Shown piece by piece: positions 1,476 through 19,880 of a stretch of 24,415 nucleotides of DNA. The stretch comes from a virus: IMG/VR virus record IMGVR_UViG_3300023257_000110, positions 1-24,415 of that record, one strand, 5' to 3'. Positions within the stretch are counted from its first letter, which is position 1. Each line of letters opens with the position of its first letter. The notes under the pieces were generated by a model. The model made no database searches and had not been told where the DNA came from. It saw nothing but the letters and a program-made list of their open reading frames with translations. The position numbers were made by a program, and so were the translations under genes.

Positions 1476-2190
1476 GATATGATTCCCATTCCATCACGAC
1501 AAGCTGACTATTACCAGACCTTAACCGATCATAAATACGGTCGCCAAGGTACTTGGTAACGTCCGATACGGCAAGGTTTGAGATAATGATTGTCGGCTTA
1601 TCCAGTTTGTATCTGCCGTTTAACACCTCAAACAGCAAGATCCGCTCCGCTTCCGTACCGAATTGAACTCCTAGTTCGTCCAATACCAGCAGTTTGGTAT
1701 ACACATGTTTGTCAATCATGCCCTGCTCTGACTTCGAGTGATCCGTATACGACGACCTGATGTCGCGTATCATTTGCAGTGTTTCGGTGTATATCCCTGA
1801 TATCCCATGACGCAGAACACGGTTTAATATCCCGATAGCAAGGTGAGTTTTCCCCGTCCCGTAGTTACCGAGTAGAAACAGCGCGTCACCGGACTTGTGA
1901 TGTATGGCATCAGCGTAATGATTGCATACCTCAAGTGCTTGCTTTTGTTCGCCTGTGGTTGCCTCGTAGTTGTACAGGCTTGAAGATTTAAACCTATCCG
2001 GGATGTTCGCTTGAACAATTAAAATGCGGATACGTGCCTCATTATCAGCCTTGTCAGCCGCAACCAGCTTGATAGCCTTATCTGCCAGTGCTTCCTCTAC
2101 GCAACCAGGACATCGGCATTCAACCTCGATTCCCATGAACGTGCCGGCTAAAACTTCGTAGTCGCCGTGGTCGTTACAGTGCTTTGTCAT
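1459..2190 (-). CDS. dnaC: DnaC-type helicase loader ATPase
   Basis: This is a AAA+ ATPase of the DnaC/DnaI/IstB family that would load the replicative helicase at the phage origin. From the start at 2190 it has 243 residues. An N-terminal zinc-binding segment has cysteines near residues 5, 25, 27 and 30. Walker A is GNYGTGKTH at about 108-116, Walker B is LLVLDEL at about 167-173, and a sensor-like IIISNL segment follows. ATG at 2199 is also in frame, but the AAGG site lies directly against it and is correctly spaced for 2190. The gene follows the replisome organiser, the usual initiator-then-loader order in phage early regions. Confidence in the family is high. Confidence 0.92.
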   Translation of the reverse strand: MTKHCNDHGDYEVLAGTFMGIEVECRCPGCVEEALADKAIKLVAADKADNEARIRILIVQANIPDRFKSSSLYNYEATTGEQKQALEVCNHYADAIHHKSGDALFLLGNYGTGKTHLAIGILNRVLRHGISGIYTETLQMIRDIRSSYTDHSKSEQGMIDKHVYTKLLVLDELGVQFGTEAERILLFEVLNGRYKLDKPTIIISNLAVSDVTKYLGDRIYDRLRSGNSQLVVMEWESYRRREE

Positions 2191-2192
2191 CT

Positions 2193-2945
2193 CTACCATC
2201 CTTTTTTGTAGTCTGTCACAACATCAGCAGTCGGTGCCTTAATTACGTGCGGTCTCAGTGTATCATACTTAGTTCGGAACTTGCTTCCTGATATTATATT
2301 TGCAAACCAAAATCCATCTGGCTTTTTTGCCCAGCGCAATACTTTTTCTATCTCATCAAGCGGCCGGTTGTCATGAGTATGTAGCAATCTAAACGACCTT
2401 GCCCAGCTTGTGAGTATAGCATCAGACTTGGTGAACGCAGGGTCACCTACTTGATGCAGTTCCATTAGTAAAGTAGCGAGGCGGTCGTACTCGGGTGACT
2501 CTTCTTTATCCTTAACTGTATTAACCTTACTTATCTTAACCTCTCTTACGCTGACATCTGGTTGTCCATGGGACGTCCCAAGCTGTTTAGGTCTGTCCGC
2601 TCTGTCCTTTGGGTCAAGTAATTCAACATCGGGAAGGATCTCAACAAGTAGATTCTGGTATATGCTGTCAACCTTCCGGTCGGCTCTTAGCTTGTTGTGT
2701 TCAAGCCAATCGGTGATGTATGTGACAAGATCCTCATTCAATACCCTAACGAATCCCTTTGCATCAAGTATCTTCAGATTGTCTTCAGCACTTCCAATCA
2801 ATCGCATTGCTGAAAATGCCTCGACAATACCGTCGTCGTCTGCACGAATAGCAAGGTGGAAATATAGATTCTGTGCATCAATCGGCATCTTTAGGAACTT
2901 GGCAGAGTTGATAATCTTCAAGCTCAACATTCTACGGTCAGCCAT
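2193..2945 (-). CDS. Phage replisome organiser (DnaD-like replication initiator)
   Basis: This 250-residue protein starts MADRRMLSLKIINSAKFLKM and continues with the pattern of aligned Gram-positive phage replisome organisers: small residues then a LYFHLAIRADDDG segment, a winged-helix DNA-binding domain. The C-terminal part (about residues 150-240, including a SWARSFRLLH segment and WFANIISGSKFR) resembles a DnaD/DnaB_2-type helicase-interaction region. The expected role is to bind the phage origin and recruit the loader encoded immediately downstream. The start directly follows the stop of the upstream winged-helix gene, and the end overlaps the loader gene. The origin itself is often inside such genes, but I could not identify iterons here. 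Confidence 0.85.
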   Translation of the reverse strand: MADRRMLSLKIINSAKFLKMPIDAQNLYFHLAIRADDDGIVEAFSAMRLIGSAEDNLKILDAKGFVRVLNEDLVTYITDWLEHNKLRADRKVDSIYQNLLVEILPDVELLDPKDRADRPKQLGTSHGQPDVSVREVKISKVNTVKDKEESPEYDRLATLLMELHQVGDPAFTKSDAILTSWARSFRLLHTHDNRPLDEIEKVLRWAKKPDGFWFANIISGSKFRTKYDTLRPHVIKAPTADVVTDYKKGW

Positions 2946-3542
2946 TTATAAACCCGCCCGCATTTCTTCGACAGATTTATTTCTATCAATAGAATGAGTC
3001 TTATAGTCTTTGGCTCTTGGTATGCTTTCAAGCGCTATGAATGACGGCTTAGAATGTAGAAATGTTTTGCCTGCTACTGATATAAAATCATACTTACCAT
3101 CAACAATATGACTGGCCTTCATTGCCCCTAAAGTCAAAACGCCTTCAATATATGCTGACCCGTTAGGGGAACATTTTCTGATAGCTTTATTGTATGCCAT
3201 TACCAGAGGGTTCTGAGAAACAGACAAAGATTCAGTAGTAAATGCTTGTGTAAGTAATATTTTCAATTCCCGTACGGTAGAAATCTGGTATTCTGTTTTC
3301 CAGCATGGGGGATCAACTATCATTGTTTTTATAGAAATATAATGTTCTTCTTCAAGTGAATGAATAAGACTTGACACTCTTTGTGTACTTTTTCCGATTT
3401 CATCAGCAAAATATTGATTTGACAATATGCACTGGCCATCTCTTTTGTGGTAATAGTTTATAGCAGATAATATTATGCGTTGCTCAATATTTATAGGCAA
3501 CTCCCAGATTTCTTGAGGGATAAAAACAGAATGATTTCTCAT
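2946..3542 (-). CDS. Winged-helix replication-region DNA-binding protein
   Basis: The start at 3542 gives 198 residues beginning MRNHSVFIPQEIWELPINIE. An open frame extends further upstream from a GTG at 3674, but that part is the predicted hairpin leader. GGAG lies five bases before the 3542 ATG, so the shorter protein is preferred. Residues 15-75 read as a helix-turn-helix or winged helix of the phage replication-protein type: QRIILSAINYYHKRDGQCIL, then a YFADEIGKSTQRVSSLIHSL segment and a hydrophobic wing. It sits directly before the replisome organiser. It may be a second initiator or a regulator of the replication genes. Confidence 0.72.
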   Translation of the reverse strand: MRNHSVFIPQEIWELPINIEQRIILSAINYYHKRDGQCILSNQYFADEIGKSTQRVSSLIHSLEEEHYISIKTMIVDPPCWKTEYQISTVRELKILLTQAFTTESLSVSQNPLVMAYNKAIRKCSPNGSAYIEGVLTLGAMKASHIVDGKYDFISVAGKTFLHSKPSFIALESIPRAKDYKTHSIDRNKSVEEMRAGL

Positions 3543-3693: not shown

Positions 3694-3702
3694 GCATTAA
3701 AA
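3674..3702. repeat. 29-bp direct repeat, copy 1
   Basis: Bases 3674-3702 are identical to 5229-5257. Both copies cover the stop codon and the sequence just past the 3' end of a leftward gene, here the methyltransferase. The two copies bracket the KilA-N and methyltransferase genes. Confidence 0.85.
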
Positions 3703-4464
3703 TAGATTGCCTTGCTGGTTTCGCGTGGCTTCAGCAATGCGCTTCTCTGCTATCTTGAAGTATTCAGCGTCAAGCTCGATGCCGATAAAGTTCCTATTGA
3801 GATTAACACATGCAACGCCGGTTGTTCCGCTTCCCATGGTGAAATCTAAAACTGTTTCATTTTCATTGGTGTATGTCTTGATCAGGTATTCCATTAAGTC
3901 AACGTTTTTTTGCGTTGGGTGTAAAGAACCGTTTTTTTTATCATTGTGTTTTGGAGTATTAAAATTAATTGTGTTTATAGGAAATTTTATTTTTGTATCC
4001 CTATAACTGTTTTTAAACCCGTTATTGCCGTAAACGCTTGTTTTTTTAATTTTATTCTTTCCACCCTTGTTTGATTTTTTATCTGCAATTCTCATTTGTG
4101 GATTATAGCTTATTGTTTTTAAAGAGAAAATAATTATATCTTCGCTAATGTTAATGGGTCTATATTTAGCAACTCCAAAATTAGAGCCATGATCTTTAAT
4201 CCATTTCCAATCATATTTGTACTCTTTAATATTTGACATTCTCAAAACACTACTAAACGGTTCACTGCCGAATAATACTATTGGAGTTCTGTCTTTCCTT
4301 AGTTGTTTTACTCTTTGCCACATTTCATCAAAAGGAATGACAGAATCCCATTTGCAGGATGTAGTACCGTATGGCGGGTCGGTTATGATTGCATCAACCT
4401 TGACGCCATCAGCTATCAATTTATCCATTATTGCCAAACATTCGCCATGATATAGATTACGCAT
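3697..4464 (-). CDS. DNA N6-adenine methyltransferase (N6_N4_Mtase, beta-class order)
   Basis: This 255-residue enzyme would transfer methyl from S-adenosylmethionine to adenine (less likely cytosine N4) in DNA. The catalytic motif IV, DPPYG, is at residues 29-33. The SAM-binding motif I, DFTMGSGTTG, comes late at about 207-216, and HPTQK precedes it, giving the order typical of beta-class N6_N4_Mtase enzymes. A typical target-recognition region lies between them. That region (about 3900-4200) is lysine/asparagine-rich and clearly more A+T-rich than its neighbours, suggesting transfer. A strong AGGAGG site precedes the ATG. No cognate restriction gene is present, so it is probably a solitary protective or regulatory methylase. 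Confidence 0.9.
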   Translation of the reverse strand: MRNLYHGECLAIMDKLIADGVKVDAIITDPPYGTTSCKWDSVIPFDEMWQRVKQLRKDRTPIVLFGSEPFSSVLRMSNIKEYKYDWKWIKDHGSNFGVAKYRPINISEDIIIFSLKTISYNPQMRIADKKSNKGGKNKIKKTSVYGNNGFKNSYRDTKIKFPINTINFNTPKHNDKKNGSLHPTQKNVDLMEYLIKTYTNENETVLDFTMGSGTTGVACVNLNRNFIGIELDAEYFKIAEKRIAEATRNQQGNLF

Positions 4465-4532: not shown

Positions 4533-5135
4533 TCAGCCATTGATAACCTTCTTGAATGCTATTCTGATTGCGTCATCTACAGGGATAACGTCGGCGAAGT
4601 CAGCAATCTTTTCATGGATTTTATCTCTCTGCCTGAGCTGTTCCTCCGATGCTTCTTCCCATGATTTAACATCAAGTTTATCTTTGATCTGTTTGGCTGT
4701 TTCCCTAATCTTATTGACAACGTTTTTTGAAGGGGTATTGCATGCTATAGCTCCCGCCATTTTCTTGTATGAATCACCCGACTCATTACGATATTTCAAT
4801 AGATGATCGTACAGCCATTTATAGACTTCTATTTTGAGTTTAGGATCGAGTGCCAATGCAATATCAATAAATAGGAATGGATGAACCCACGTTGTCGATG
4901 ACCTACCACGGCCTTTAATCACGATCTGGCCGTATTCATTCTCAAGCTGTTTGACAAACTCAGTTGTCTTGTCAAGATTCAGGAATGAAGACAAGTTGAA
5001 TATAGATAGATTGTTTATAATTCGCCATCTATTACCAGCGTTTACAAGATCGGTAGCAGAGAATAATTCAGATTTACTTTTCTGCCTTATCTCACGACCG
5101 AACAATTCACGTTTCATTATAACTTCTGTTTTCAT
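4533..5135 (-). CDS. KilA-N domain protein
   Basis: This 200-residue protein carries a KilA-N domain, a DNA-binding fold found in phage and large-virus regulators. The hallmark is a TTWVHPFLFIDIALALDP segment near residues 80-97, followed by a conserved YKWLYDHL stretch. The C-terminal half is helical and charged, possibly for oligomerisation. It has its own promoter at 5166-5194 with a flanking inverted repeat, so it may be self-regulated. It pairs with the downstream methyltransferase between two 29-bp repeats, as a cassette that differs in base composition from the operon. The family includes antirepressor-like proteins, but the exact role here is not shown. Confidence 0.85.
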   Translation of the reverse strand: MKTEVIMKRELFGREIRQKSKSELFSATDLVNAGNRWRIINNLSIFNLSSFLNLDKTTEFVKQLENEYGQIVIKGRGRSSTTWVHPFLFIDIALALDPKLKIEVYKWLYDHLLKYRNESGDSYKKMAGAIACNTPSKNVVNKIRETAKQIKDKLDVKSWEEASEEQLRQRDKIHEKIADFADVIPVDDAIRIAFKKVING

Positions 5136-5228: not shown

Positions 5229-5257
5229 CGCCACACTGAAACTATCAAGCATTAAAA
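5229..5257. repeat. 29-bp direct repeat, copy 2
   Basis: This copy is identical to 3674-3702 and covers the stop codon and the sequence just past the 3' end of the mom-like gene. The start-to-start distance between the copies is 1555 bp. Confidence 0.85.
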
Positions 5258-5890
5258 CAATATCCCTTGAGATGTCGTTTTGTAGCTGGCATCGTATCGT
5301 TGCGTTTCGCCTTTAGGGTATTCAAGGATAGGATATTTTAAAGCATTCTGAAACCGTTTTCTCTCTTTTTTTGATCCACAGAAATATACATATCGGTGTT
5401 TTGCTGATCGCTGTTCCCTGTTTTTAGAATAATCTTGCCCTTTGTCGTAGTGTCTAGAGTGCTTTCCTTCGCCTGAACCTATATCTGTACGCTCTTTCGT
5501 TGTTCCAGTAAATAGGAAATTACAAGCCTGATATATTTTGCCTATGTGTCCCATAGAAGTATCAGCGTATGAAACAATAATAGTCGCAGTCCTGAGATAG
5601 GACAAACATTTTGACACGAACCATGACGTAATATTTATTTCATCTGAATCAACACACAGCCTGTTTAGTTCTTTTACAGCCCATGAGAATTCTTCTCCAC
5701 ATATGCCGATACACAGGTTCCGACTTGCTGGCGCGCCGAATGTACAAACTCCGACTAGTTTATCAACATCATACAACCCAAAGCAGTGACCTGTTGCTAT
5801 TGACGGGATACGATGGGCATAATGTTTTTTCAGTATCCACTCGTAAGCCTCTTGAGATTTCATTCGTTTGATGGAAAAGGTTTCTTTCAT
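5252..5890 (-). CDS. mom: Mom-like GNAT-fold DNA adenine modification protein
   Basis: This 212-residue protein resembles phage Mu Mom, which converts adenine in DNA to a carbamoylmethyl-type derivative and protects the phage from restriction. Visible Mom-family features are the KKHYAHRIPSIATGHCFGLY segment near residues 21-40, a VGVCTFGAPASR segment, an ELNRLCVDSD segment, and a strongly conserved SYADTSMGHIGKIYQACNF stretch near 107-125 followed by TGTTKERTD. Length matches the family. The start overlaps the end of a 50-residue zinc-ribbon gene, echoing the com-mom arrangement in Mu. The downstream methyltransferase and this enzyme together form a counter-restriction block. Confidence in the family is high. 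Confidence 0.88.
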   Translation of the reverse strand: MKETFSIKRMKSQEAYEWILKKHYAHRIPSIATGHCFGLYDVDKLVGVCTFGAPASRNLCIGICGEEFSWAVKELNRLCVDSDEINITSWFVSKCLSYLRTATIIVSYADTSMGHIGKIYQACNFLFTGTTKERTDIGSGEGKHSRHYDKGQDYSKNREQRSAKHRYVYFCGSKKERKRFQNALKYPILEYPKGETQRYDASYKTTSQGILF

Positions 5891-9081: not shown

Positions 9082-9157
9082 AACAGGGTGACTGGAGTTG
9101 GATACCAGCACGGTATCATAAGCCGTTTCGACGTGGGTTCGAATCCCACCCCTGTTA
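9082..9157 (+). tRNA. tRNA with anticodon CAT (Met, or Ile2 after lysidine modification)
   Basis: Acceptor arms AACAGGG (9082-9088) and CCCTGTT (9150-9156) pair fully, with discriminator A at 9157. The D arm is CTGG/CCAG with loop AGTTGGATA. The anticodon arm is ACGGT/GCCGT with loop ATCATAA, giving anticodon CAT. The variable loop is five bases, and the T arm is GTGGG TTCGAAT CCCAC. Three bases, not two, separate the acceptor and D stems, which is unusual. CCA is not encoded. ATA codons are frequent in this phage, so a tRNA-Ile2 reading ATA is attractive, but Met cannot be excluded from sequence alone. Confidence 0.8.
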
Positions 9158-12583: not shown

Positions 12584-12597
12584 AGATATTATGTCAA

Positions 12598-12811
12598 GGA
12601 ATGGCGCGGACTGGAACGACGGGGAATGGAGAGGCGCGGAATGGACATGCAAGGCTGGCCAGGACCGGAGAGGAAGGACAAGGACGGGATTGGCTTGGAG
12701 AGGATTGGCGCGGCTGGCAAGGGCAGGACCGGCAGGGAATGGCTCGGAACGGCCCGGAGTGTCAAGGCTGGAGCGGATGGGAACGGATAGTGATGGCTCG
12801 GCAAGGAGAGG
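12598..12811 (+). repeat. Pentanucleotide-periodic array, GG every 5 bases
   Basis: Over about 214 bases, GG falls every five bases at nearly every step, with only a few one-base slips (near 12657, 12676, 12716 and 12770-12780) and a few lost G's (12618, 12648, 12761, 12790). The other three bases vary, with A or C favoured after GG. The unit is thus about GG(A/C)NN, some 43 units. Two reading frames stay open through it only because of the low-complexity sequence, and neither has a ribosome binding site. It ends two bases before the -35 box of the cargo promoter. Confidence 0.85.
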
Positions 12812-12812
12812 T

Positions 12813-12841
12813 TTGACAGGCAATCATGAAGGTAGTATAGT
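12813..12841 (+). promoter_or_regulatory. Promoter of the sugar-transport/nonulosonate cassette
   Basis: A perfect TTGACA (12813-12818) and TATAGT (12836-12841) are 17 bases apart. The predicted start is near 12848. It directly abuts the GG-periodic array, so the array could act as an upstream binding region. Confidence 0.82.
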
Positions 12842-12862
12842 TATATCGGAGATCAACCGGCG

Positions 12863-12940
12863 GCACTTCAGGATGTCGTTGGGGGATTCTATCCTTCATT
12901 TAGCCCACGGCACAACCTGAAGTGCAACGTGGGCTTTTTA
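12863..12940 (+). ncRNA. Cargo-operon leader: terminator overlapped by a potential pseudoknot
   Basis: The terminator stem is AGCCCACG (12902-12909) with CGTGGGCT (12928-12935), followed by TTTTTATTTT. Its 18-base loop holds CCTGAAGTGC (12916-12925), perfectly complementary to GCACTTCAGG (12863-12872) upstream. The two helices can form a pseudoknot or compete. A further hairpin lies between them (around GGATTCTATCC). The AGGAG site of the binding-protein gene is eight bases past the T run. This looks like a switch controlling read-through into the transporter genes, or a small RNA. Confidence 0.6.
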
Positions 12941-12958: not shown

Positions 12959-14224
12959 ATGAAGAAACTTGTTTTTCTGGTAATGGTGGCATTGCTTGCC
13001 TTTACCATGTATAGTGCGGGACAACCCGAATCGCAGACCTTGCGGATTCTGCATTCCGGGAATGCCGTATTTGAGAACGGGACGACTTTCATTGGAGAAG
13101 CAACCCGGCTATTCAATTTGAAATATCCCGACATCACAGTTGAGGAAAGCAAAATTGACTTGTCGGATGGGTCAGCACTGACCATGGATGCCATGATTGC
13201 CGCCGGTATGCCACCTAATATTTATATGGATACAATGGTAAGAGCGTCAAAATATATGATTCCTGAATTCGCTTTGCCGTTGGATGACTATATCAGCGAT
13301 CTTGATAAATACCAGCCGGGGATCCTCGATCCATACCGAAAAGACGGTAAACTGATGGCATTACCACAAGCCGGGGGCGCGCAAGCCATGGCGATCAATC
13401 TGGATCTGATGGATGATATTGGCTACACCGTGCCTGATGACTGGACAATCGTTGATTTCCTGAAGATGGCCGGCATGGTAAAACATAAATACAATGGCGA
13501 GAAATGGGCAACAGGGATGTTTGCCGCGAATCAATCCGGGGATTATCTAATCAATAACTGGTTTGCTGCGTTTGGTGTGGATTTCTACGGTCCGGGCGGT
13601 TATGATGTTTCAACAATTGCCGATACCGGTGGTGAGGTAGTTTATCAGTTTTTCAACTTATTGAATGAAAACGGGTACATACCTCCGAACAGCGCCGCCC
13701 TATGTGATGACGATTATGTGATGCAATGGTCTGATGGAAACCTTGCCGCAACAGCATTTTTCCCATCGTGGATGAAACCATACTGGGATGCATCGATGAA
13801 ACAAGGGACGATAAAAGAACCGTTCAGGGTAAAATACGTTCCATTTCCTGCAATGCCAGGGGTGAGCGGTGTACCTGTCTATTTTTCCAATGCTGCAATT
13901 ATCGTCAATAACACCGGGACTGATATTGATACTCCTGCCGCGTATTATGCTGAATTACTCAATGGCGCATGGGCACAGAATGAATTAGTAAAGCAAGGGA
14001 TCATGTCAACCCGGACAGATGCAATTCCAAACCAAGATCCGTATCTTCTGCAAGTTGCTGACATCATGGCAAAGAATGGGATTCAGGATGTTGGTATCAC
14101 TGACCCGCGATTTACCGAAAGGCGGTCACTACAGTTTCCGATCCTGCAAAAGTTGTTAAATGGCAAAATCAGCCCTGCTGACGCAATTGCCGAATATCAA
14201 GAAAAGTTGACATCTGTAAAATGA
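12959..14224 (+). CDS. ABC sugar transporter, extracellular solute-binding protein (CUT1-like)
   Basis: ATG 12959 is seven bases after AGGAG and gives 421 residues. It begins with a signal peptide (MKKLVFLVMVALLAFTMYSA) that lacks a lipobox cysteine and instead reads AGQPES, so it should be cleaved by signal peptidase I and be periplasmic or released. The mature part has the family-1 binding-protein layout: TLRILHSG strand start, an ITVEESKIDLSDGSA region, a KLMALPQAGGAQAMAINLDL segment typical of sugar-binding proteins, and a late PAYYAELLNGAWAQNELVKQ helix region. The substrate is unknown. It is the first gene of the cargo operon, coupled to two permeases. Family confidence is high. Confidence 0.9.
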   Translation: MKKLVFLVMVALLAFTMYSAGQPESQTLRILHSGNAVFENGTTFIGEATRLFNLKYPDITVEESKIDLSDGSALTMDAMIAAGMPPNIYMDTMVRASKYMIPEFALPLDDYISDLDKYQPGILDPYRKDGKLMALPQAGGAQAMAINLDLMDDIGYTVPDDWTIVDFLKMAGMVKHKYNGEKWATGMFAANQSGDYLINNWFAAFGVDFYGPGGYDVSTIADTGGEVVYQFFNLLNENGYIPPNSAALCDDDYVMQWSDGNLAATAFFPSWMKPYWDASMKQGTIKEPFRVKYVPFPAMPGVSGVPVYFSNAAIIVNNTGTDIDTPAAYYAELLNGAWAQNELVKQGIMSTRTDAIPNQDPYLLQVADIMAKNGIQDVGITDPRFTERRSLQFPILQKLLNGKISPADAIAEYQEKLTSVK

Positions 14225-15027
14225 GCCTAATACTGATTGCACCACTGGCGATACTCTGGATTGTATTCTTCGCGTGGCCTATGGTGCAGTTGGTTATTAT
14301 TTCACTACAGCATACCAATTTCATGAGGTCGGAGTTTATCGGCCTCGATAACTATATCAAAACATTTACTGATCAAACCTTCTGGCTGGCGGTTACCAAT
14401 TCTCTGTCATACGCCGCACTGATGATTCCATGCACTGTTTTTATAAGTTTTACACTTGCCTGTTTTCTGTCGAGAATGTCAAAGCCGTGGCGTAATGCTG
14501 CCAGAATAGGGTTTTATATTCCATCACTATCAGCAGGGATAATTATAGCAGGATTCTGGAAGTGGTTATTTCATGTGAATGGCGCTGTCAATTGGGTTCT
14601 GGGAGCAAACATATCATGGTTTGCCCAAGGGATAACGGCCATTCCAGTGATTGCCGGGATAGTTATACTCAGTGCTATGGGTAGTGCATTGATTATGACA
14701 CTCGCAACTGTGGAAGCGGTTGATCCAGGGATATTAGACTCGGCGAGAATTGACGGGGCATCATGGCGGCAGATAAAATACAGGATCATCATGCCGACGA
14801 TTGCGCCGGTGCTGGTTCTGCTTGCACTGCTTTCATGGATTGGAGCATGGCAGATTATTGAGACACCTATGATGCTTGCCCCACAGGACTATGCGGCAAC
14901 GTTGACATATCATATTTATAGGCAAGGGTTTCTGTTCGGGAATTATGGACTTGCCAGTGCACAGGCTGTCATTTTATTGGGTATTATTGGCGGACTTGCT
15001 CTGCTTAAAACTAAGGTAAAGCAATGA
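14221..15027 (+). CDS. ABC sugar transporter permease, MalF/UgpA-like
   Basis: This 268-residue integral membrane protein has about six hydrophobic segments, the first at residues 3-27. The EAA loop that docks the ATPase is clear near residues 172-195 (DSARIDGASWRQIKYRIIMP), with the conserved D-G-A and terminal P. N-terminal features such as FIGLDNYIKTFTD are typical of CUT1 permease A. The start overlaps the binding-protein stop (ATGA), so the subunits are made together. It would form the channel with the next gene product. The C-terminus ends shortly after the last helix, with no extra domain. Confidence 0.92.
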   Translation: MSLILIAPLAILWIVFFAWPMVQLVIISLQHTNFMRSEFIGLDNYIKTFTDQTFWLAVTNSLSYAALMIPCTVFISFTLACFLSRMSKPWRNAARIGFYIPSLSAGIIIAGFWKWLFHVNGAVNWVLGANISWFAQGITAIPVIAGIVILSAMGSALIMTLATVEAVDPGILDSARIDGASWRQIKYRIIMPTIAPVLVLLALLSWIGAWQIIETPMMLAPQDYAATLTYHIYRQGFLFGNYGLASAQAVILLGIIGGLALLKTKVKQ

Positions 15028-15836
15028 AGAAAGTATGGCTTATAATCATGATGGCACTTGTATTGCTTCCAGTCTGGTTTATGGTGGTATATTCGCTTGA
15101 GGATGTGCAGGGAGTTCTACGGATGCCACCACGACTAATCCCGAATACGCCGACAATAGAGAATTTCAGGTATATCTCAAACTGGCCATTATTGCGGTGG
15201 GTTCGCAATTCTGCAATCGCGGTGGTTGCAACTGTGATTCTCTCTGTAATTGTGTATGCCATGGCGGGCTATGCGTTCGCTTTTAAAAAGATTCCACATG
15301 AAAAATTGATATGGGCGGCGTTTATTGCGGGGATGATGGTTCCCAGGATGAGCCTGATGATTCCAATGTATATCACTATAAGGCAAGTGGGGATTTCTGG
15401 AACCATGGCGGCGGTTGTCCTGACATCAATATATCAGCCGGTCAATCTATATCTGACAAGGAATTACATGATGCAAATCCCTAAAGCCATTATAGAATCA
15501 GCTACCATTGACGGAGCATCTGAATGGACTATACTATATAGGGTGATAATTCCGCTTGCATTGCCTGTCTTAACGTTGATTGCGCTATTAACCGGGATAT
15601 TTATATTGAGTGATTATGTCTGGCAATCGTTAGTATTTCAATTTGGAGACACCCAGACTTTGGTAGTCGGGATTATGAGAAAGGTATTGACACGAGGTGG
15701 CGGGGAACTGAATATCAATCCACTAGGACGGCAAATGGCAGTCGGGGTAATCTTGTTATTCCCACTGCTTACTATATTTTTGATAGCAAATAAATATTTT
15801 ATAACCGGAATTTCTGTAGGGGGAGTTAAGGAATGA
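15024..15836 (+). CDS. ABC sugar transporter permease, MalG/UgpE-like
   Basis: This 270-residue protein has six predicted hydrophobic segments and an EAA loop near 156-178 (ESATIDGASEWTILYRVIIP). The segment PPRLIPNTPTIENFRYI after the first helix and the C-terminal KYFITGISVGGVKE end are typical of CUT1 permease B, whose C-tail reaches the ATPase. Overlaps of four bases with both neighbours place it firmly in the operon. No ATPase gene follows, so it must use a host MsmX/UgpC/MalK-type ATPase if it works. Family confidence is high. Confidence 0.93.
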   Translation: MKKVWLIIMMALVLLPVWFMVVYSLEDVQGVLRMPPRLIPNTPTIENFRYISNWPLLRWVRNSAIAVVATVILSVIVYAMAGYAFAFKKIPHEKLIWAAFIAGMMVPRMSLMIPMYITIRQVGISGTMAAVVLTSIYQPVNLYLTRNYMMQIPKAIIESATIDGASEWTILYRVIIPLALPVLTLIALLTGIFILSDYVWQSLVFQFGDTQTLVVGIMRKVLTRGGGELNINPLGRQMAVGVILLFPLLTIFLIANKYFITGISVGGVKE

Positions 15837-16609
15837 TAACAGCATTGATAACAGCACGGGGCGGTTCTACAAGAATACCAGGAAAGAATATATATCCAAT
15901 CTGCGGCCATCCATTAGTTGCATGGTCTATTATGCAGGCTTTGGCGTGTAAGCAAGTCGATATGGTTATTCTCACCACGGATGATGATGAGATCGCGGAG
16001 GTCGGGGAAAGATACGGGGCGCATGTAGTTCGACGGCCTGTCTGGGAAAATGGAATTACTGCTGGAGTCGCATTTAAACATGCTATGGAACAGGTGGGCC
16101 CATGCGATCATATCCTGACAATGCTACCAACAAGCCCGCTTAAAAAACCGGATGATCTGGATAATATGATCAGTCTATATCTTGAGCTTGAGACCAACGT
16201 CATTGTTACTGCTGCACCGATTAAAGAGACCTGTATTTATTTAAATGATCAATCATTTGAGCAGAGGTATGGAGACAGCCATAATGAACCAGGTAAGAGG
16301 CAGGATCAAAAACATTTCACAGCACGGAATCATATTTTCGACAAGTTTTGGAATTATTCGAAACTCTGCGGAGGCTGGGGAATTGCTGAATATAATTGGT
16401 CAATGGAGCAATGGGGAAATAACCCAAAACTTGACATAACTATAGATAAACGCGAAATTGACACAGAGACAATAAAACACTGTTATGCAGTCGAAGAATG
16501 GCAGTGCTATGAACTGGATTATCCCGAAGATATCCCTATTGTGGAATGTTTCATGGAGAAATTTATTTTGAAAGGCCGAGACGCAAAGGACGTATACAGT
16601 GGAAACTGA
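15833..16609 (+). CDS. CMP-nonulosonate (N-acylneuraminate-type) cytidylyltransferase
   Basis: This 258-residue enzyme resembles NeuA/PseF/LegF, which join CTP with a sialic-acid-like sugar to give a CMP-activated donor. The nucleotide-binding signature ITARGGSTRIPGKN occupies residues 6-19 and is followed by PICGHPLVAWSI. Further matches are ILTTDDDEIAEVGERYGAHV near 46-65 and MLPTSPLKKPDDLD near 96-109. The C-terminal half is less typical, with a tryptophan-rich stretch. It overlaps the permease gene upstream and the DUF115 gene downstream. The family also includes Kdo and glycerol-type cytidylyltransferases, so the exact sugar is unsure. Confidence 0.87.
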   Translation: MITALITARGGSTRIPGKNIYPICGHPLVAWSIMQALACKQVDMVILTTDDDEIAEVGERYGAHVVRRPVWENGITAGVAFKHAMEQVGPCDHILTMLPTSPLKKPDDLDNMISLYLELETNVIVTAAPIKETCIYLNDQSFEQRYGDSHNEPGKRQDQKHFTARNHIFDKFWNYSKLCGGWGIAEYNWSMEQWGNNPKLDITIDKREIDTETIKHCYAVEEWQCYELDYPEDIPIVECFMEKFILKGRDAKDVYSGN

Positions 16610-17951
16610 ATTCACATATAAAAGCAATTCAACACAGTACAATCAGGCAACCGATAAAGCACAGACAATTCATGAAGAATACAACGCAACCCGAAACTGG
16701 CCGATAATTCAGGATCGTATAAAGGCCGGCACTGCATATGATATCAGCGCAGCCGGCAAAGCGAACAAGCCGTGTATCATAGTTGGATCAGGTGGAAGCC
16801 TGGACGAAACATTACCGCACTTAAAAGACTGGGAGGGCGGTATTATCTGTAGCACGAGCCATGCATTGACACTTGTGAAATATGGCGCTCCACCGACTCA
16901 CATTTATGCACTTGATCCGTTCTGCACTTTTGAGGAAATCCAGGGAGTAGACTGGTCGCAATACGATACAAAGCTAATTACTACCCCGACAGTATGGCCG
17001 ACTTTGATTGAAAAATGGCCGAATGACATTATTCTATATCGTCAATCCAGAGGGAAAAGCGACAGTTTCTATGCGAATATGCTAAATATCATGTACTCGG
17101 ATCGGGAATGTAAAGACGGACAACTCCGCATGGCAGCATTTGAACCACAAATCAAAACAGAGGTCACGCTATTTGCTTGCTCACCACCTGGACAATTGTT
17201 TTCAGCTCAGGTACTTGGATATACGAACATATTTCTAACCGGGGTTGATTTCGGGTATACTCACGGTAAAAGCCGGTTCACAGAATGGACATGCGAAAAC
17301 GGCGAGTGGATTGAACATCAGAAACCGTATGACGCATTACCTCAGGACGTAAAAGACCGCGCAGTTATGTCAAATAATGGGATAGAAATGGATGTTGTAC
17401 ACACTTTCTATAAAAAGAACATGATATCAGCCTGGAGACTGGGATTACAAAGTTGCTGGACAATCGGGGAAACAACGATTACAGAGATGCCGAAAGTTGA
17501 TATAGAACATGTTATCAGAAAGCAGGGGAATCATATAAAGGGCTACTCAACACAACAGATTGCTGATATATCAGAAACCTATTTAGCAGCTGTAGGCGCT
17601 TTCGTAGTTGCGTCAGATCAAGGCTACTCATTCGTTGAAAGCGAAAAGCCAGAAGAGGAATTGCTAAAATATATGGAAGGGATGAGAAGTCAATATATTT
17701 GCGGAACGTGCAATTCTCAAATGGTATCCGAAAATGAAGAGGAAAGAGAAATAGAAGAATGTCCGGTTTGCAAGGCGAAAACACTACACAGACGGTTCAA
17801 TATCGATATCGAGGGGAACATGAAACGCATCAGGAAGCGGATAAAGGCCGCTAATAAGCTGAAAATAGGCAAGGAAAAGCCGGTTGTTGATCCAATGAGA
17901 AACGTTAAGGCGGTATATTCTGAATCAATGCGTGATGTGAATAAATCATGA
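16599..17951 (+). CDS. DUF115/Maf-like protein with C-terminal zinc ribbon, probable glycosyltransferase
   Basis: GTG 16599, eight bases after AAAGGA, gives 450 residues. The DUF115 (MptE-like) core begins with KPCIIVGSGGSLDETLPHLK at 57-76, then a STSHALTLVKYGAPPTHIYALDP region, and later NIFLTGVDFGYTHGKSRF near 208-225. In flagellar Maf proteins this domain transfers nonulosonic acids to flagellin. Archaeal MptE instead pyrophosphorylates a pterin. The adjacent CMP-nonulosonate synthetase favours the first role. Near residues 367-391 two CxxC pairs form a zinc ribbon not usual in the family, followed by a very basic tail. Confidence 0.82.
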   Translation: METEFTYKSNSTQYNQATDKAQTIHEEYNATRNWPIIQDRIKAGTAYDISAAGKANKPCIIVGSGGSLDETLPHLKDWEGGIICSTSHALTLVKYGAPPTHIYALDPFCTFEEIQGVDWSQYDTKLITTPTVWPTLIEKWPNDIILYRQSRGKSDSFYANMLNIMYSDRECKDGQLRMAAFEPQIKTEVTLFACSPPGQLFSAQVLGYTNIFLTGVDFGYTHGKSRFTEWTCENGEWIEHQKPYDALPQDVKDRAVMSNNGIEMDVVHTFYKKNMISAWRLGLQSCWTIGETTITEMPKVDIEHVIRKQGNHIKGYSTQQIADISETYLAAVGAFVVASDQGYSFVESEKPEEELLKYMEGMRSQYICGTCNSQMVSENEEEREIEECPVCKAKTLHRRFNIDIEGNMKRIRKRIKAANKLKIGKEKPVVDPMRNVKAVYSESMRDVNKS

Positions 17952-18337
17952 CCGCCTATGATCTCGACGGGACACTATGCACAGAAACCCCTGCAAGATG
18001 GTGGGAGAAACCGCTATTCAGGATATTCGGCGATGCTTACGGTCGGTTAAGGAAAGCATGGGAAACGCCTATCTTGAAGCCTGAAGGGGAATATATTATA
18101 ATTACGAGTAGGCAGGGTACAAGAAGACACGTCATGCGAACTTATAGATGGCTTGAAAAGTACGGATATACGCAGAGTGTCTTATACATGATGGCATCAG
18201 GAAACTATACCTATAAGGCAGAATATAAAGCAGAGATGTGCAAAGCGATGTACGTTGACAAGTATTACGAGAATGAGCCTGCCGTTGCTCAGTACCTACG
18301 GGAAACGGTGCCAGGATTGGAGGTAGTAGAGGTATGA
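17948..18337 (+). CDS. Small HAD-superfamily phosphatase
   Basis: This 129-residue protein starts MTAYDLDGTLCTE, with the HAD motif I DxDGTL at residues 5-10 (nucleophile Asp5). Motif II appears as IIITSR near 49-54, a conserved lysine follows, and a YVDKYYENE acidic motif lies near 98-106. The small size means no large cap domain, as in KdsC-type or phage HAD phosphatases. It overlaps the DUF115 stop (ATGA). In nonulosonate pathways an HAD enzyme removes a phosphate from the sugar before activation, so it fits the cassette, but phage HADs may also act on nucleotides. Confidence 0.82.
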   Translation: MTAYDLDGTLCTETPARWWEKPLFRIFGDAYGRLRKAWETPILKPEGEYIIITSRQGTRRHVMRTYRWLEKYGYTQSVLYMMASGNYTYKAEYKAEMCKAMYVDKYYENEPAVAQYLRETVPGLEVVEV

Positions 18338-18358: not shown

Positions 18359-18655
18359 ATGCCATTTGTACCAGGTAAATCAGGAAATCCCAACGGCAGA
18401 CCAAAGAAAACCGAGGCCATGACCGAGATATTAAGGGCCGAATTGAACACGCTCGACCTTGAAGATGCCGAAGGGAACCCGATACCAGCAAAGCAGGCGA
18501 TAGCTCGCCGATTGATCGCCCTTGCTATGGATGGCGACGTGCCTGCAATGAAGTATGTCTATGACAGGATCGACGGTAGGCCGAAGGAATCGATTGACCT
18601 TGAACATAGCGGAGAGCTGACAGTTGTTTTCGAGGATGCGGAGAAAGATGTTTAA
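18359..18655 (+). CDS. terS: Terminase small-subunit-like protein (DUF5681 type)
   Basis: This 98-residue protein starts with MPFVPGKSGNPNGRPKKTEA, the signature of DUF5681 proteins. These lie before phage large terminases and are thought to serve as the DNA-recognising small subunit. The following helical part (AKQAIARRLIALAMDGDVPA then YDRIDGRPKE) supports this. AAGGA precedes the ATG. The end overlaps the large subunit start. Recognition of the pac or cos site is inferred from family and position, not visible here. Confidence 0.82.
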   Translation: MPFVPGKSGNPNGRPKKTEAMTEILRAELNTLDLEDAEGNPIPAKQAIARRLIALAMDGDVPAMKYVYDRIDGRPKESIDLEHSGELTVVFEDAEKDV

Positions 18656-19880
18656 ACTTACAGAAAAACAGCGTGAAGCTGCGCGACTGATAGCACAGAA
18701 AAAGATAGTGCTACTTGAGGGCGGTTCAAGGTCAGGTAAGACATTTCTCGCTTTACGGGTTATCTGCAAACGGGCGCTTGAGAAGCCTGCACATCATTTG
18801 GTAGCACGGTTCAGGTTCAACCACGCCAAACAATCGATCTGTCATCAAACCATGCCAGCCGTGCTTGAATCGTTGAATCTTAAAAAGGCTGTCAAGCTAA
18901 ACAAAACAGACTGGTTTTATGAGTTCCCGAATGGTTCGACGGTGTGGATCGGTGGCCTTGATGACAAAGACAGGACAGAAAAGATACTTGGTAATGAGTA
19001 TGCCACGATATTCCTTAATGAAGCATCTCAGATATCCTATCCAGCATATGAGACGATTATCACCAGATTGAACCCTCCTGAAGGAATGCGCGGGAGGATA
19101 TTGATTGACTATAATCCTCCATCAATAAACCATTGGGGATACAAGATATTTCATCGCGGCGAATTGCCAGATGGGCGCACTGTCGATATGAAAGATTACG
19201 GGAAAATCAGGATGAATCCAGGGGACAATATTGAGAACATATCAACTGAATACCTGGAAACGCTGAATACCTTGTCAGAATCAAAGCGGAAAAGGTACTT
19301 GCACGGGGAGTACAGTCTGGACAGTGGAACGCTATGGCGCAGAGCATGGATAAAGTACCGGGAAGAGTTGCCGGACATGCAGCGGATAGTTGTCGGCGTT
19401 GACCCTGCTGGAACAGTAGATGGTGATGAGATTGGAATCATTATAGCAGGGAAAGCGGCGGGGGAATATTACGTGCTTGATGATTACAGTATGCATGGGA
19501 CACCCCAACAATGGGCGGCTGAAGTTGCACAGGCATTTGTGAAATGGAGAGCAGATGCGGTTATTGCCGAAAAGAATTATGGTGGTGATATGGTTGAATC
19601 AACGATCCGGGGAGCAAAGAAAAATATCAATGTTCAGCTTGTGAATGCAACCAGGGGGAAGGTTGTCAGGGCCGAGCCAATGTCTGCATTATATGAGCGT
19701 GGGCAAGTGTATCACAGAATACCATTTAACGACCTGGAGGATGAAATGTGTCTATACGATCCAGCTATTGACAAATCACCGAACAGGATGGATGCTCTAG
19801 TGTGGGCATTAACAGAATTGACCGAAGGATATACAGGAAATATAGCTGAAAATTACGGAGCTTCTGACTTAGGATTATAG
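18648..19880 (+). CDS. terL: Terminase large subunit
   Basis: The packaging motor ATPase-nuclease. From ATG 18648 it has 410 residues. Walker A LLEGGSRSGKT is at residues 22-32, and Walker B ATIFLNEAS has its glutamate near 125. A YNPP stretch (coupling region) follows, and the RNase-H-like nuclease starts with VVGVDPAG, its aspartate at about 252. Later acidic residues (AEKNYGG and a final D-A-L-V-W-A) complete the nuclease. The length suits phages with separate head and portal genes. It overlaps the small subunit and is followed by portal after eight bases. Alternative in-frame starts up to eight codons upstream lie inside the small subunit gene. Confidence 0.95.
   Translation: MFKLTEKQREAARLIAQKKIVLLEGGSRSGKTFLALRVICKRALEKPAHHLVARFRFNHAKQSICHQTMPAVLESLNLKKAVKLNKTDWFYEFPNGSTVWIGGLDDKDRTEKILGNEYATIFLNEASQISYPAYETIITRLNPPEGMRGRILIDYNPPSINHWGYKIFHRGELPDGRTVDMKDYGKIRMNPGDNIENISTEYLETLNTLSESKRKRYLHGEYSLDSGTLWRRAWIKYREELPDMQRIVVGVDPAGTVDGDEIGIIIAGKAAGEYYVLDDYSMHGTPQQWAAEVAQAFVKWRADAVIAEKNYGGDMVESTIRGAKKNINVQLVNATRGKVVRAEPMSALYERGQVYHRIPFNDLEDEMCLYDPAIDKSPNRMDALVWALTELTEGYTGNIAENYGASDLGL

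Follow-up and report, generated by a model that had tools for sequence, protein, structure and literature searches.

We report that a gene cassette in a phage genome probably encodes a system that scavenges, activates and transfers nonulosonic acid (NulO), a sugar of the pseudaminic, legionaminic or sialic type, and we give this reading a probability of roughly two in three. The cassette lies in IMG/VR virus record IMGVR_UViG_3300023257_000110 (hereafter the window, which is the whole record of 24,415 bases). Its genes encode a secreted solute-binding protein (SBP, 12959-14224), two ATP-binding cassette (ABC) importer permeases (PermA, 14221-15027; PermB, 15024-15836), a NeuA/PseF-type CMP-nonulosonate synthetase (CTS, 15833-16609) and a Maf-like putative protein glycosyltransferase with a C-terminal zinc ribbon (DUF115, 16599-17951), followed by a small HAD-like phosphatase domain (17948-18337). 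The earlier note, made from the letters of the window, had described six overlapping genes before the terminase, and open reading frame (ORF) calling recovered all six on the plus strand from 12959 to 18337, each overlapping or abutting the next.

To see whether the gene set recurs, we scanned viral contigs with SBP and DUF115 and compared the neighbourhoods by gene calling and profile searches. In 16 distinct IMG/VR viruses, the window virus among them, the importer stood beside CTS and DUF115; three of these loci are cut at contig ends, within SBP in L024 and L044 and within PermB in L023. The order SBP-PermA-PermB-CTS-DUF115 is kept in L004, L008, L009, L010+L020 (the two ends of one record, counted once), L011, L012, L013, L016, L017, L033 and L034; several of these cassettes are interrupted by extra genes. 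One such insertion, at L004:8485-9468 between PermA and PermB, encodes a Radical-SAM-like protein (weak match). Most of the proteins are 30-55% identical to those of the window, and the survival of one five-gene order at such divergence argues that the set did not arise by chance. Cassette-bearing viruses have different terminases and carry the cassette at differing late-region positions, usually just before the terminase genes and, in L034, between the gp7 and capsid genes. Of the six-gene synteny proposed as a check by the earlier note, five genes were found together in divergent viruses, and every contig found with SBP also carries DUF115.

The strongest functional clue came from viruses in which the importer is missing. 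The same DUF115 occurs without an importer in three viruses (L029, L031 and, separately, L025), and all three carry a NeuB gene. In L029, DUF115 is followed by PseB-, PseC-, PseI-, PseH- and PseF-like genes, a methyltransferase and a WbuX N-acetyl sugar amidotransferase; L031 has PseB-like, NeuB, methyltransferase and WbuX-like genes in common with L029. The L025 locus, where DUF115 sits between terminase and portal, has LegC/PseC-like, SDR, NeuB, CTS-like (KdsB-like) and methyltransferase genes. Whole-record searches of 24 related records found PF00528 in 15, NeuB in three and both in none. The other six (L007, L035, L036, L037, L038 and L039) have neither; each begins inside or at CTS or DUF115, so that its upstream parts are missing. 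L044 is the 16th importer record, beyond the 24. Because importer and NeuB are mutually exclusive beside DUF115, the importer is likely to supply NulO or a direct precursor. Shared gene order and this exchange together support the functional linkage of importer, CTS and DUF115, and they argue against the transporter and sugar genes being random, separately acquired morons.

We considered whether the importer might instead serve another purpose, for example to bring a carbon source into the infected cell, with the CMP-sugar/glycosyltransferase pair acting independently on host NulO. Such a role would fit an SBP whose fold matches are general sugar binders, and importer identities that covary weakly with those of DUF115 (SBP-DUF115 0.27). 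We regard it as unlikely, given that the importer accompanies CTS and DUF115 in 16 viruses and is missing exactly where NeuB occurs. Furthermore, a distinct, divergent importer subfamily in L021 and L044 holds the same place beside CTS and DUF115; the DUF115 of L044 is also divergent. In L021 (137-4447), a BNR-repeat (sialidase-like) ORF adjoins this importer, and aldo/keto reductase and class-III aminotransferase genes are interleaved with it; these genes might serve to release the imported sugar or to prepare it.

Permease families, SBP profile and SBP fold agreed on the phage-borne CUT1-type importer that the earlier note had proposed. Searches of Pfam, PHROG and NCBIfam gave no match for SBP itself; a profile built from SBP relatives picked out sugar-binding proteins among PDB entries (E 1e-17), and the AlphaFold model of SBP (pLDDT 87.7) matched trehalose/maltose and other CUT1 sugar-binding proteins with E values down to 6.6e-20. 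PermA (PF00528, E 3e-8; EAA loop ARIDGASWRQIKYRIIMPTIAP) is nearest to the UgpA and GlcT models of NCBIfam, and PermB (PF00528, E 3e-14; EAA loop ATIDGASEWTILYRVIIPLALP) to GlcU, MalG and UgpE. The importer combines two marks of the CUT1 class: a sugar-SBP fold with a signal peptide, and a pair of different permeases that each have an EAA coupling loop. No MalK/MsmX-type ABC ATPase scored above cut-off in 19 related phage records, so the importer would presumably dock to an MsmX/MalK-type ATPase of the host. The N-termini of SBP and its relatives resemble signal peptides in which no clear lipobox cysteine is seen, which suggests a protein soluble in the periplasm and hence a diderm host. An alternative GTG start for the window SBP, at 12929, is likewise open.

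The CTS product has a CTP_transf_3 domain (PF02348, E 5.5e-20) with the motif ARGGSTRIPGKN, in keeping with the synthetase named in the earlier note. Its best NCBIfam model is PseF (E 1.9e-22), but the score of 80 bits falls below the equivalog cut-off of 205.7, and for this reason we call it NeuA/PseF-like and do not assign it as PseF. The sugar might alternatively be Kdo (3-deoxy-D-manno-oct-2-ulosonic acid) or another acidic keto sugar: KdsB models of NCBIfam match CTS as well, the CTS-like gene of L025 is KdsB-like, and CMP-Kdo can be used by a Maf enzyme (PMC11339370). Against the PDB, however, the CTS family profile matched NeuA at E 1.5e-35 and KdsB at only 8e-10, a lead for NeuA of more than 80 bits, and all three synthesis-type viruses have NeuB-family enzymes. 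We therefore consider Kdo or another acidic keto sugar highly improbable.

Both profile and fold placed DUF115 (PF01973, E 2.6e-12) nearest to Maf, as the earlier note had suggested. The DUF115 profile matched a single PDB protein, the Magnetospirillum Maf 5MU5 (E 4.3e-7). The best fold match of the DUF115 model (pLDDT 87.2) was again Maf 5MU5 (E 2.3e-6), followed by the HPPK/MptE-type structure 8sd5 (E 1.7e-3); TM-scores to both were low, so DUF115 shares only its core domain with these structures. The DUF115/MAF_flag10 central domain is present in DUF115, and the full Maf architecture of about 630 residues is not. Because the protein has only about 450 residues, ends in a zinc ribbon and aligns with 5MU5 in part and at low TM-score, we designate it Maf-like and do not assign it as a Maf on these predictions. 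A GSG-SL motif and the four zinc-ribbon cysteines (CxxC...CxxC) are kept in all 17 DUF115 relatives. There are other viral DUF115 proteins, but their sequences are far from that of the cassette DUF115. L017 (16251-19194) has two tandem DUF115 genes behind one importer and one CTS, possibly for two acceptors.

The name of PF01973, which derives from MptE, and the second fold match, an HPPK from Methanocaldococcus jannaschii, could point to DUF115 as a pterin or nucleotide diphosphokinase of MptE type, in a cassette whose target is a cofactor or nucleotide instead of a protein. This possibility, which the earlier note had listed as pterin-type chemistry, is disfavoured and appears very unlikely to us: Maf is the better match to DUF115 in both sequence profile and fold, and weak fold matches extend to the sialyltransferases CstII and ST8SiaIII. 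Moreover, the neighbours of DUF115 are CMP-NulO and NulO synthesis genes, and no folate or pterin genes were seen among them.

Gene order, families, folds and linkage, the lack of a phage ATPase in the records searched and the exchange of the importer for NulO synthesis genes in related phages are computed; from them we infer the imported molecule, the transfer reaction and the acceptor of the proposed NulO pathway. Secreted SBP would capture free NulO or a direct precursor outside the inner membrane, and PermA and PermB would import it with the help of an ABC ATPase borrowed from the host. CTS would then join the imported NulO to CMP, and the Maf-like DUF115 would move it onto serine or threonine residues of an acceptor protein. 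Of the possible acceptors, we consider a late-made virion protein a little more likely than flagellin or some other surface protein of the host. The late-region position of the cassette and the lack of a tyrosine integrase in 25 records mildly favour a late-made acceptor over lysogenic conversion, and the latter result lends no weight to a role in prophage conversion.

Pairwise identities covaried within the importer at 0.74-0.90 (SBP-PermA 0.89, PermA-PermB 0.90) and among virion genes at 0.65-0.77, whereas importer and virion genes covaried at about 0 (SBP-TerL 0.04); CTS and DUF115 were intermediate. As identity pairs are not independent, these values are descriptive. They suggest an importer block that moves between phage backbones, although CTS and DUF115 accompanied every copy found. 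In comparison with L007, dN/dS was about 0.04 for DUF115 and 0.08 for CTS, rough values with synonymous sites near saturation, and both genes look to be under strong purifying selection. More tentatively, and with the odds somewhat against it, the cassette could belong to a modular glycosylation of phages' own virions, in which a fixed CMP-sugar/transferase core is fed either by an ATPase-borrowing NulO importer or by a phage NulO synthesis operon.

Several observations weigh against a NulO scavenging and transfer system. The fold neighbours of SBP bind neutral oligosaccharides, and its ligand cannot be named from fold alone. The nucleotide-binding motif of CTS is altered in L008, L009 and L021 (IPQH, not ARGG), and CTS was not detected in L031. 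DUF115 covers only the central domain of Maf, its zinc ribbon replaces the flagellin/chaperone-like C-terminal domain, and its family also includes MptE pterin diphosphokinases. Lastly, the exchange of importer for synthesis genes rests on few independent events, with only three synthesis-type viruses.

Further searches returned little. No bacterial or archaeal relative of SBP or DUF115 was found in 84,980 species genomes with a pattern prefilter that can miss distant ones, and hence no host was found. Neither protein had a match among the 50,697 phage records of INPHARED at the sensitivity used, DUF115 had no plasmid match, and no further contigs came from a scan with the divergent DUF115 of L016. 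Permease matches in INPHARED were about 23-34% identical; most came from records without annotation, of 'Listeria phage LM' and faecal phages, and they could be bacterial contamination.

Other parts of the earlier description of the window did not hold up. The HAD-like gene, proposed there as a cassette member, is confined to the window virus and near-identical copies; it has no relative at other, divergent cassette loci and lies outside the conserved cassette. This lack of conservation, and the fact that its only match is to a phage polynucleotide-kinase family (weak phrog_415), also led us to reject it as a NulO-9-phosphatase. A conserved phage gene had been placed just upstream of the cassette; the ORF there (12591-12920) is a repetitive, low-complexity reading frame that may not be a real protein. 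Inside it lies a plus-strand promoter-like site, TTGACA-N17-TATAGT (12813-12841), which matches the consensus at 11 of 12 positions. This consensus match is the best candidate for the single promoter suggested earlier, but the scan yields many chance hits.

The gene run sits between early genes and the terminase, and continues into genes for a DUF5681 protein in small-terminase position (18359-18655, plus strand; PF18932, E 1.4e-16), the terminase large subunit TerL, a late-region marker (18624-19880, plus strand; PF17289, PF04466), portal, a Mu F/gp7-like protein, scaffold and capsid. Elsewhere in the window, a minus-strand gene (5252-5890) encodes a Mom-family protein (PF25680, E 2e-36) that probably modifies DNA bases as a guard against host restriction; genes for an N6/N4 DNA methylase (3697-4464) and a KilA-N protein (4533-5135) lie close by. 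Similar ORF pairs on the minus strand between 135 and 1489 (135-521/841-1173 and 714-989/1163-1489) suggest tandem duplication of a several-hundred-base unit. A tRNA-Met gene with a CAT anticodon (9082-9157) was the only structured RNA found in the window. Downstream of DUF115, the closest relative, L007, encodes another phage transporter, a Vut_1/YhhQ-type putative queuosine-precursor transporter (3806-4402; PF02592), and L037 an RtcB RNA ligase (2125-3258).

We then compared the cassette with known systems. In Haemophilus ducreyi, the genes of the Sat transporter are arranged with those for a CMP-sialic acid synthetase and a sialyltransferase. This ABC sialic acid transporter (PMC9631793) serves a pathway that, like the one proposed here, imports free sialic acid, activates it with CMP and transfers it to a surface molecule; it is bacterial, however, uses another transporter class and modifies lipooligosaccharide, whereas the cassette is phage-borne with a Maf-like protein transferase. 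EpaA and EpaB, found in Acinetobacter baumannii, are likewise phage-encoded; these NulO-modifying enzymes act on pseudaminic acid (PMC12053666), but they epimerise a host capsule sugar and form no import-activation-transfer set. Streptococcus pneumoniae has two CUT1 sialic-acid importers, SP1681-1683 and SP1688-1690, each, like the phage importer, with one SBP and two permeases; their ATPase is encoded elsewhere (PMC3302838), as predicted for the phage importer. They are catabolic and their SBP is a lipoprotein, whereas no clear lipobox cysteine is seen in the phage SBPs.

Maf enzymes transfer NulO from CMP-NulO to serine or threonine of flagellin. They tolerate several CMP-NulO donors (PMC11339370). 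Magnetospirillum 5MU5 and Clostridium botulinum CbMaf share the DUF115 central domain with the phage protein; the latter differs in its length, zinc ribbon and an alignment confined to that domain. We found no description of the cassette in the literature searched, mostly outside subscription papers. The parts are of known kinds, and the phage-borne import-activate-transfer set and its exchange with synthesis were not found described.

Auxiliary genes of phages usually tune central metabolism or help to obtain a single nutrient. The uncultured phages described here seem to encode a whole route that starts with sugar uptake and ends with the decoration of a protein, available in two interchangeable forms and lacking the energy-supplying subunit. 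If true, phages could put sialic-acid-like sugars on proteins without a sugar-making host, with consequences for host range, superinfection and particle recognition. Overall, the choice between making and importing the sugar offers a direct test of function for a group of uncharacterised viral DUF115 proteins.

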